A stretch of 64,000 bases of DNA from positions 1,312,814 through 1,376,813 of the forward strand of contig NZ_QVFV01000001.1 in NCBI RefSeq assembly GCF_004212215.1, given 5' to 3'. The notes beneath the pieces are model-generated. The model did not search any database. It saw only the letters and a list, made by a program, of their open reading frames with translations, and was not told the origin of the DNA. Source of the DNA: Leptolyngbya iicbica LK. GTDB lineage: Bacteria; Cyanobacteriota; Cyanobacteriia; Phormidesmidales; Phormidesmidaceae. Position numbers and translations under genes: made by a program. Below are positions 49,980 to 52,228 of this stretch, piece after piece. Positions within the stretch are counted from its first letter, which is position 1, and each line of letters opens with the position of its first letter.

Positions 49980-50177
49980 CTAGGAATAGGGCAGCATCAG
50001 CTCAACATTGGGCGCATCGGCATCAACGACCACAGCTTTCTGAGATAGACGGGCTTTACGCTTGGTCTTTTTCTTATCCAGCAGGTGATTGCGGAATGCT
50101 TTGCGACGTACGAACTTGCCACTGCCTGTGCGCTTAAAGCGCTTAGCAGCCGCTCTGCGAGTTTTTAGCTTCGGCAT
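49980..50177 (-). CDS. rpmI: 50S ribosomal protein bL35
   Basis: This 65-residue basic protein contains [36 protein letters not shown] and [13 protein letters not shown], which is the complete bL35 pattern. It is the first gene of the rpmI-rplT pair. Its start is divergent from the umuD'-like gene, with 187 bases between the starts. Confidence 0.97.
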
Positions 50178-50332
50178 GACGACGTTTTCCTATTTTCGAC
50201 GCAGTCTTCCATGATATACCCAGCTTCTAGATCTACACAAGGGCTCTGCAACTCTGGCAGTTTTGCCATCCAAGGATGCTGGCGGCTTTTCTCAAAAAAT
50301 GTGCGGATGTTGGGCGAGCCTTCCTGAATTGA

Positions 50333-50345
50333 AGTATAAATGAAC
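50333..50345 (+). promoter_or_regulatory. Possible promoter and LexA-type site of umuD'C
   Basis: TATAAA at 50335-50340 could be a -10 with TTGGGC (50310-50315) 19 bases upstream. The overlapping AGTATAAATGAAC resembles the cyanobacterial LexA pattern RGTAC-N3-DGTWC with two mismatches. It lies 19 bases before the start codon. The match is weak and is offered as a candidate only. Confidence 0.3.
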
Positions 50346-50364
50346 TACTCAGGCGAGGAAGGCC

Positions 50365-50694
50365 ATGGGTTTTCCAGTGCCCGGCGATGTCATTGAACAG
50401 AGCCTCGACCTCAATCGTTATCTCATCCGCAACCCCGCAGCGACTTTTTTGATGCGGGTCACGGGCGACATGGTGGTTGACACGGAGGTGCAACCAGGCG
50501 ATTTGCTGGTTGTGGATCGTTCGCGCTCGGTACAGGGAGGCGGGTTGGTGGTGAGCGTCATGGAGGGACAACTGCTGGTGTTGCGGGTTGAACTCGTAGG
50601 TCCGCGCCTGGTACCGGCGATCGCTCCTGAACCTGCAGATTTAACCAGTCTGGAAATTTGGGGTGCGGTGACCAACATTATTCGCGCGGTTTAG
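50365..50694 (+). CDS. umuD: UmuD'-like DNA polymerase V subunit lacking the cleavage site and protease dyad
   Basis: This 109-residue homologue of UmuD begins at MGFPVPGDVIEQSLDLNRYL, so Met1 takes the place of Cys24 of the E. coli Cys24-Gly25 cleavage site. The N-terminal arm is absent, and an in-frame TGA at 50341 excludes a longer product. The catalytic Ser60 (GDSM) is Met36 (TGDMVVD), and Lys97 (TVKKL) is Leu73 (LVLRV). The fold-defining PGDLLVVDRS and the C-terminal strands are kept. It therefore looks like UmuD' made directly, with no RecA-dependent cleavage. SD GAGGAAGG precedes ATG. umuC starts 7 bases after the stop codon. Confidence 0.85.
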   Translation: MGFPVPGDVIEQSLDLNRYLIRNPAATFLMRVTGDMVVDTEVQPGDLLVVDRSRSVQGGGLVVSVMEGQLLVLRVELVGPRLVPAIAPEPADLTSLEIWGAVTNIIRAV

Positions 50695-50700
50695 ATCACC

Positions 50701-51990
50701 ATGTTTGCGCTGGTCGATTGCAATTCATTTTTTGCCTCCTGCGAAAAGGTCTTTCGTCCCGACTTGGCCAACCAGCCAGTTGCCGTACTGTCGAACAATG
50801 ATGGATGTGTAGTGGCGCGATCGCCGGAAGCAAAACCGTTGGTGCCCATGCAGGCGACCCTGTTCTCGATTCGACATTTGGTCCAACGCGGCAAACTCCA
50901 CGTTTTCTCTTCGAATCCGGTGCTGTACAAAGACATGTCGCGGCGTGTGATTGAGACGCTGCAACATTTCAGCCCCGAAGTGGAACAGTATTCCATTGAC
51001 GAAGCCTTTTTGGGGCTGCATGGCTTTGCTCACCGAGACTTGACGGACTACGGTCAACAAATTAGAGCCACGGTGCAACAGTGGACGGGGATTCCCGTAT
51101 CGGTGGGCATCGCGTCGACCAAAACCCTGGCAAAGCTCGCCGCCCACGTGGCGAAACGGCATCTCGGCTGCAAGGGCGTGCTGAACTTCAACGCGTTGGA
51201 GGAGGTGGATCAAGTCTTGGCGGCGATCGCGGTCAGCGAAGTTTGGGGCATTGGCCGCCATCTCACGGCCAAACTCCAGGCCCAGGGCATTCTCACCGTG
51301 CTGCAACTCAAACAGGCAGACGCAAAGCGCCTCAAAAAACAGTTTGGCATTCTCGTCATGCGAACCGTGATGGAGTTGCGAGGAATCGCGTGTTTTCCGA
51401 TGGAGCCAGTGGCCGCGCCGAAAACGATGCGGATCGTGTCTCGCTCTTTTGGCCATGTCGTGACTGAACTCTCTGAGATCAAGGAAGCCGTGGCGACCTA
51501 TGCCGCTCGCTGTGCCGAAAAGCTGCGGGATGATGGTCTGCTGGCCCATCAATTTGCAGTGGCCATTCGCACCAGTTATTACCGACCAGACAATCAATAC
51601 GCTGCCGTTCGGTCCGTCTCCCTAGAGCCACCGACCAATGACACCGCAACGCTCATTCATGCCGCCATGGGCCTGACCACAGCGGCCTTTAAGCCAGGGT
51701 ATGACTATCTCAAAGCGAAGGTCATCGCGACTGAACTCACCCCAGCGGACGCTGTGCAGGGTGAGTTGTTTGCCGCGCCGACCAATACCGAGAAGCGCGA
51801 TCGCCTCATGACCACTATTGATGCCCTCAACCGCCAACTCCATCCCGATGCCGTCAAGTTTGGGGCAATGGGGCTGAACCCGACTTGGGGACTGCGATCG
51901 AACTATTTTTCTCAACGCTACACTACGCACTGGGATGAGATTCCGACCGTCCAGGTGTGGCCACTGTCGCAGCATTGCGGATGCAATTAA
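50701..51990 (+). CDS. umuC: UmuC, Y-family DNA polymerase V catalytic subunit
   Basis: This translesion polymerase has 429 residues. Catalytic carboxylates are present: Asp in FALVDCNSFFASCE and Asp-Glu in YSIDEAFLGL. NNDGCVVARSPEAK gives the conserved UmuC palm region. GIPVSVGIASTKTLAKLAAHVAK and VWGIGRHLTAKLQAQGI (thumb HhH) follow. A little-finger domain and C-terminal tail complete the protein. All key residues look intact, in contrast to its UmuD partner. The 6-base intergenic gap implies one operon. Confidence 0.95.
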   Translation: MFALVDCNSFFASCEKVFRPDLANQPVAVLSNNDGCVVARSPEAKPLVPMQATLFSIRHLVQRGKLHVFSSNPVLYKDMSRRVIETLQHFSPEVEQYSIDEAFLGLHGFAHRDLTDYGQQIRATVQQWTGIPVSVGIASTKTLAKLAAHVAKRHLGCKGVLNFNALEEVDQVLAAIAVSEVWGIGRHLTAKLQAQGILTVLQLKQADAKRLKKQFGILVMRTVMELRGIACFPMEPVAAPKTMRIVSRSFGHVVTELSEIKEAVATYAARCAEKLRDDGLLAHQFAVAIRTSYYRPDNQYAAVRSVSLEPPTNDTATLIHAAMGLTTAAFKPGYDYLKAKVIATELTPADAVQGELFAAPTNTEKRDRLMTTIDALNRQLHPDAVKFGAMGLNPTWGLRSNYFSQRYTTHWDEIPTVQVWPLSQHCGCN

Positions 51991-52228
51991 CGTCAAGATT
52001 GATGGTTGAGGTTGTAGCGTGGGGTCGAAATCACAAGACCCAAGGGCTCAAGGGCTGATTTAACTGGTCCCGTGGTTGACCCGCGCGACGAGACACCCCA
52101 ACTTTCTTACGGTTGGCAGAGCACTGCGCACTCTCGACTGGTCGTCTCCCCCTTTGAGCCAGCCGCCAATTCAACCGCCAGAAATCGCTCGAAAATGGTA
52201 CAAAGTTATTGGACTCTGGGGACATCGC

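Follow-up and report, generated by a model that had tools for sequence, protein, structure and literature searches.

A cyanobacterial umuD homologue encoded in the UmuD' form directly upstream of umuC

Cleavage of UmuD is regarded as a timer that delays mutagenic synthesis. A gene in the genome of Leptolyngbya iicbica LK raises the question whether a cellular Pol V can do without this timer. It lies in a stretch of 64,000 nucleotides that was analyzed as a whole (hereafter the window), in which umuD' occupies positions 50365–50694 of the + strand. The gene starts with ATG and encodes a protein of 109 aa, whose N-terminal MGFP corresponds to the N-terminus of UmuD'. A putative ribosome-binding site (GAGGAAGG, 50355–50362, +), inferred from the sequence, is located just 5' of the gene. 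An in-frame stop located 8 codons before the start, reported in an earlier sequence-only reading, was confirmed as a TGA at 50341–50343 (+).

The same reading had described the protein as a UmuD homologue encoded already in its processed form, and this description held. In an alignment to PDB entries, residues 2–108 of the window protein align to solved E. coli UmuD'. In both this and a separate alignment, residue 2 coincides with Gly25 of E. coli UmuD; Met36 (codon 50470–50472, +) takes the place of the catalytic Ser60, and Leu73 (codon 50581–50583, +) that of the catalytic Lys97, a position occupied by Ala in the 8gmt chain and by Lys in 1umu. The Ser-Lys dyad of the UmuD family is thus absent from this protein. 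Homology to UmuD itself is clear (NF007621, E = 2e-22), with a score of 79.4 bits that lies below the curated cut-off of 110. The protein also matched Peptidase_S24 (Pfam) above the cut-off (E = 3.5e-8) and reached 50.4 bits on the HumD model NF051876, below its cut-off of 120. A structure model built from a 52-row alignment (pLDDT 78.2) aligned best to UmuD' 1ay9 (Z 11.5, rmsd 3.1, 99 residues), followed by 1umu (Z 11.3); LexA domains came next, with Z values of 10.1 and below, and signal peptidases ranked lower still. An earlier, poorer model (pLDDT 67.8), for which the top Foldseek match was a LexA domain and the second UmuD', was superseded by this deeper one. With its start at the Gly25 equivalent and the UmuD' fold of its model, the window protein has the UmuD' form.

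The partner gene, umuC (50701–51990, +; 429 aa), begins 6 bases past the umuD' stop and encodes IMS, IMS_C, and DUF4113 domains. Its frame is open, the SIDE motif is present, DUF4113 is kept over its whole length, and the catalytic residues Asp6, Asp101, and Glu102 are found in 16 of 16 rows of its UmuC clade (window gene twice), which bears out the claim that umuC is intact. On the UmuC subfamily model NF002955, the window protein scored 405.7 bits, below the cut-off of 431. In the short-form loci, umuC remains 3' of umuD', either directly or separated from it by an insert. Over the available stretch, it shares 72–89% identity with the window's umuC in all of the 16 other copies but L067, in which the value is 61%. 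In a tree of 70 UmuC rows, the partners of the short form made up one clade (16 rows, window gene twice) with a support of 100/100 and a long stem. Its sister group consisted of seven canonical UmuC rows from the same family, including the one encoded on contig C3 of the window's genome. As judged from the UmuC tree, the short form probably arose once, when a second copy of umuDC diverged.

The UmuC clade also carries a signature of its own. Its steric-gate residue is Phe11 (codon 50731–50733 in the window, +) instead of Tyr11 in 16 of 16 aligned rows, and Tyr is found in 51 of the 53 other UmuC rows. In the fingers, where the window protein has Gln51-Ala-Thr53 (50851–50859, +), all 16 clade rows have Gln for Gly52 and Thr for Pro54 (E. 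coli numbering), and both Gly and Pro are present in 53 of 53 others. The C-terminal DUF4113 (51802–51951, +; assigned by domain match and alignment) comprises a RecA-NT-like motif and a UmuD'-binding tail. The glycine that ends the RecA-NT-like helix is replaced in 16 of 16 clade rows (by His, Lys, Gln, Cys, or Ser); the other 53 rows have Gly (37) or Asn (16) at this position. These three clade counts again include the window gene twice. Phe11, the Gln/Thr fingers, and the replaced glycine are co-traits of the clade.

In the Nodosilinea group (L043, L015, L037, L042, L044, L153), umuD' and umuC are 582–1312 bases apart. The insert of L043 (3331–4071) contains a small antisense DUF4278 gene (E = 2.4e-13), a hairpin occurs 3' of umuD' in the group, and the palindrome AGTATAGGAATACT, perhaps a LexA box of umuC itself, precedes umuC in L015 and L044. 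No Rfam match was obtained in three loci with this insert.

Expression of the window umuD'C may be under SOS control. A LexA-box-like site, AGTATAAATGAACT (50333–50346, +), overlaps a TATAAAT motif, and its first base lies at −32 from the start codon. This site matches the published cyanobacterial LexA consensus AGTACWNWTGTACT (PMC3091678) at 12 of 14 positions. The best site was located at −32 or −33 in 11 of 18 short-type loci, with single-locus shuffle values ranging from 0.003 to 0.44, and a LexA-box-like site was missing at these positions in 7 of the 18. A relaxed LexA pattern was not enriched genome-wide (6 sites versus 6 for the control), and no sigma-70 consensus promoter was found within 50150–52150. 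Elsewhere in the window's genome, LexA-box-like AGAACGCTTGTACT (12 of 14 positions) lies upstream of a canonical umuD and GGTACAGTTGTTCT upstream of lexA. LexA itself has, as judged by eye, the Ala-Gly site, the Ser of GDSM, and the Lys. The canonical umuD genes of L028 and L029 are preceded by AGTTCACTTGTACT, which reads AGTACAAGTGAACT on the other strand and is one base off AGTATAAGTGAACT of L019. Taken together, control of the window umuD'C by LexA is plausible.

Based on these features, we propose with a probability of roughly 0.75 that the locus encodes a variant Pol V that does without cleavage of UmuD, in which the umuD' product works with the downstream UmuC, beside a normal UmuDC in this strain. 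UmuD' would be made directly from the gene. Removal of the initiator Met is expected before Gly, and the product would then begin at Gly25 like cleaved E. coli UmuD'. It most likely dimerizes and, together with the product of the umuC gene 6 bases further on, would function as a Pol V-type translesion polymerase. Derepression by LexA would yield active UmuD'2C at once, without RecA-stimulated UmuD cleavage or the delay that this entails. RecA would still be needed for the cleavage of LexA and, if the altered motif works, for the activation of UmuC. Since the LexA-box-like site, the Ala-Gly site, Ser, and Lys of LexA, and DUF4113 of UmuC all remain, UmuD cleavage is the only step whose loss is clear. 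Once the arm has disappeared, Ser and Lys would have no function to serve. The arm of E. coli UmuD also carries degradation signals, and these would be missing from the short form as well. According to a recent model, the N-terminal arm of UmuD' lies in the UmuC cleft, with the N-terminus near the active site (PMC12926913); the strong conservation of the first 17 residues among the short forms (15 aligned copies) fits such an entry. A point against the cleavage-skipping reading is that either UmuC of this cell might be bound by its canonical UmuD. Also counting against it are the patchy distribution and broken loci of the short form (see below), the LexA pattern with its lack of genome-wide enrichment and its absence from the expected place in 7 of 18 loci, and the scores of the two proteins below the curated UmuD, HumD, and UmuC cut-offs.

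A bolder extension of this proposal, which we regard as doubtful, is that the clade represents a Pol V lineage with both RecA gates loosened (no UmuD cleavage, and the RecA-helix glycine replaced) and a changed active site (Tyr11 to Phe, Gly52 to Gln, Pro54 to Thr). Such a polymerase might be RecA-independent or differently activated, might have its own lesion or error preference, and would be maintained alongside the normal polymerase or in its place. The helix-end glycine has been singled out within the RecA-NT-like motif (PMC6511836), and RecA itself retains NFGKG in the five genomes checked. However, the presence of Asn at this position in 16 of 53 other UmuC rows weakens the loss of glycine as proof of RecA independence. 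For the steric gate, the Y11F exchange in E. coli UmuC caused little change in sugar selectivity and raised mutagenesis (PMC3493448).

The sequence-only reading had further claimed that the checkpoint is removed, and had named a second cleavable UmuD that pairs with this UmuC as evidence that would count against its interpretation. In part, this is the case: a full-length canonical UmuD was found on contig C3 of the window's genome (99.99% complete), where it adjoins a second UmuC of its own and has the arm, a Pro-Ala-Gly site, GDSM, and TIKR. A third Y-family gene in this genome is DinB-like. The claim therefore stands for the window form, in which the UmuD-cleavage step is clearly gone, but it is not supported for the cell, because the same genome retains a cleavage-gated Pol V with full-length UmuD and a second UmuC. 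It holds more fully in four near-complete relatives (G002, G004, G058, and G062; 96–100% complete), in which no canonical UmuD was matched besides the pre-cut form. The UmuC matches in these four genomes are the partner genes and DinB-like rows, plus one unassigned fragment in G002. G036 resembles them, but its short copy is truncated. G014 was not counted because it encodes a further S24 protein in which Ser and Lys are present. An S24 protein of 202 aa in L062 (1486–2094, −), with an unassigned N-terminal part and with Ser and Lys, scored 87 bits on the UmuD model.

The coexistence of both forms allows for another explanation, according to which the short UmuD' serves as a modulator of canonical UmuD, with heterodimers altering how stable the normal Pol V is or when it acts, and with its own UmuC being secondary. 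UmuD/UmuD' heterodimers are known from E. coli, and a canonical UmuD co-occurs with the short form not only in the window's genome but is also clearly matched in G001, G021, G035, and G044 (in G026 only as pieces at contig edges). Nevertheless, the four genomes that carry the short form without a canonical UmuD match, and the persistence of umuC 3' of umuD', with or without an insert in between, make this explanation improbable.

To place the cleavage-skipping form in its wider context, copies were collected from a family-level search of 63 genomes and from further stretches, which resulted in 17 distinct copies that could be classified, drawn from 13 genomes. Excluded were the damaged copies of G019 (L025/L069, L176), the fragments L032–L035, further copies of G014 (L022; C3:184916), and duplicate fetches of the same gene. 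All 17 copies have a UmuD'-type start (MGFP in 13, MAFP in three, MSFP in one), and none has Ser at position 60 (Met in 13; Ala, Leu, Val, and Gln in one each) or Lys at position 97 (Leu in 13, Ser in two, Val and Thr in one each). Hence, the form is a trait of a clade and not that of an isolated pseudogene. Both dyad positions are nonpolar in 14 of 17 copies (Met/Leu in 11, and Ala/Leu, Leu/Leu, and Val/Val), which looks as if the pocket had been repacked. In the 15 aligned copies, F3, P4, P6, G7, D8, E11, L14, L16, and N17 are invariant. Named carriers (8 loci) are Leptolyngbya sp. SIOISBB, Nodosilinea spp., Phormidium tenue FACHB-1052, Oscillatoria sp. CS-180, and Filamentous cyanobacterium CCP5. 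Among the rows examined from 386 phylum-sampled genomes, no window-type copies were detected beyond the family; on the short-form profile, the window protein reached 168 bits, whereas the runner-up, a 192-codon frame, reached 105 bits.

An origin from mobile elements was considered and rejected. At least 5000 plasmid records matched, all with <60% identity, and 38 of the 40 listed were annotated as UmuD and two were unannotated. Among the best 80 of at least 504 viral-contig relatives, 80 of 80 had both Ser and Lys, with a potential start codon lying 15 or more codons upstream.

Several further observations concern the UmuD diversity in these datasets. One contig of G014 holds three umuD'C copies (L022, L040, and G014:C3:184916), with L022 and L040 being 95% identical over 1863 bases. 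In family f20 of the phylum sample (L139–L143, L147, L148), UmuD-like proteins with Ser and Lys, yet lacking a GFPSP site, are encoded beside umuC. Other cyanobacterial UmuD rows (L144–L146, L149, L150, L024, L057) lack Ser60, showing Gly, Ala, Leu, or an altered loop instead, and some of them also lack Lys97 as judged by eye. They are spread over several families and perhaps represent separate losses.

Within the family, the short form is distributed patchily (13 of 63 genomes, plus G019 with damaged copies only). Fragments occur in G022, G043, and G048, and others whose type is unclear in G024 and G032. Furthermore, umuD' of G036 ends after residue 91, and umuC is incomplete in G027 and in one of the two G002 loci. 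Loss of the short form is thus also common. Such broken copies and fragments would be expected if the gene were a decaying paralogue that lost its arm and catalytic dyad once it had stopped mattering, but this is very unlikely given the low dN/dS, the same start in 17 of 17 copies, the invariant N-terminal residues, and the intact UmuC in the window. For short umuD', dN/dS was 0.08–0.24 in 19 of the 20 lowest-dS pairs and 0.41 in one (20 of 136 pairs), compared to 0.05–0.45 for canonical umuD (20 of 45 pairs) and 0.06–0.13 for the partner umuC (20 of 105 pairs), with pairs being non-independent in each set. Short umuD' is therefore under purifying selection, with a dN/dS similar to that of canonical umuD.

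A concealed N-terminal arm was sought by reading the 150 bases that precede each of the 17 copies in three frames, against 30 shuffles each. In this search, 17 of 17 copies scored no better than the best shuffle (scores 21–32). The power was moderate, as 12 of 14 real arms reached at least 35 in a leave-one-out control and two only 29–31. Reading upstream, an in-frame stop is reached after 1–27 open codons in 17 of 17 copies. The N-terminal arm and cleavage site of the UmuD family were hence not found at the window gene, considering the upstream stop and this search of moderate power, and an arm encoded in another frame was rejected on the same three-frame result. That an arm is concealed by an artefact of sequencing or assembly, or by a start codon read wrongly, is scarcely credible, despite the moderate power and the in-frame ATG codons located 13 (G004) and 23 (G062) codons upstream, as the same form recurs in 13 genomes, every copy has the nearby in-frame stop and no arm-like peptide, and the upstream frame of G062 passes through the LexA-box-like site.

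A cellular lineage without the cleavage timer, whose pre-cut form apparently belongs to the sole Pol V in some genomes, would allow one to ask what the timer is for. Likewise, a natural UmuD' with a dead and seemingly repacked active site and a matching UmuC could help in studying how Pol V is assembled and how RecA activates it.

The closest comparisons are with E. coli, with phages, and with the second system of the same strain. The order of umuD and umuC in E. coli is the same as in the window, and the window proteins resemble UmuD/UmuD'-UmuC (Pol V) in fold, UmuC domains, and the N-terminus of the processed form. However, E. coli UmuD has the arm, the Cys-Gly site, Ser60, and Lys97, all four of which are lacking in the window gene. 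The canonical UmuDC on contig C3 is a homologous pair with the same gene order and a LexA-box-like site upstream. Its UmuD has the arm, Ala-Gly site, Ser, and Lys that the window UmuD' lacks, and its UmuC has Tyr11, the glycine of the RecA motif, Gly52, and Pro54, at all of which the window UmuC differs. Passages from a cyanobacterial survey give the presence and copy number of umuCD without a pre-cut form (PMC5101192). In titles and abstract openings listed from the open-licence literature, we found no pre-cut cyanobacterial UmuD, which does not imply its absence from print. The window form is not the first natural UmuD', as it is preceded by HumD of phage P1, an exception that encodes an already activated, shorter UmuD (PMC7092418). 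P1 HumD starts with MGFPSPAADYVE at the same residue as the window protein and without an arm, N15 gp26 is alike, and both phage proteins begin with MGFPSP. In the P1 record, humD is annotated with a LexA binding site, and HumD is stated to complement UmuD'. In contrast to the window umuD' with its umuC, humD and the N15 gp26 gene are phage genes, for each of which 1422 bases were read without encountering a umuC. Moreover, both phage proteins retain, as judged by eye, a Lys that corresponds to Lys97 (in IKR), where the window protein has Leu73. Compared to P1 HumD, what appears to be new is a UmuD' that is cellular, clade-wide, and catalytically dead, and that probably has a dedicated UmuC with a signature of its own.
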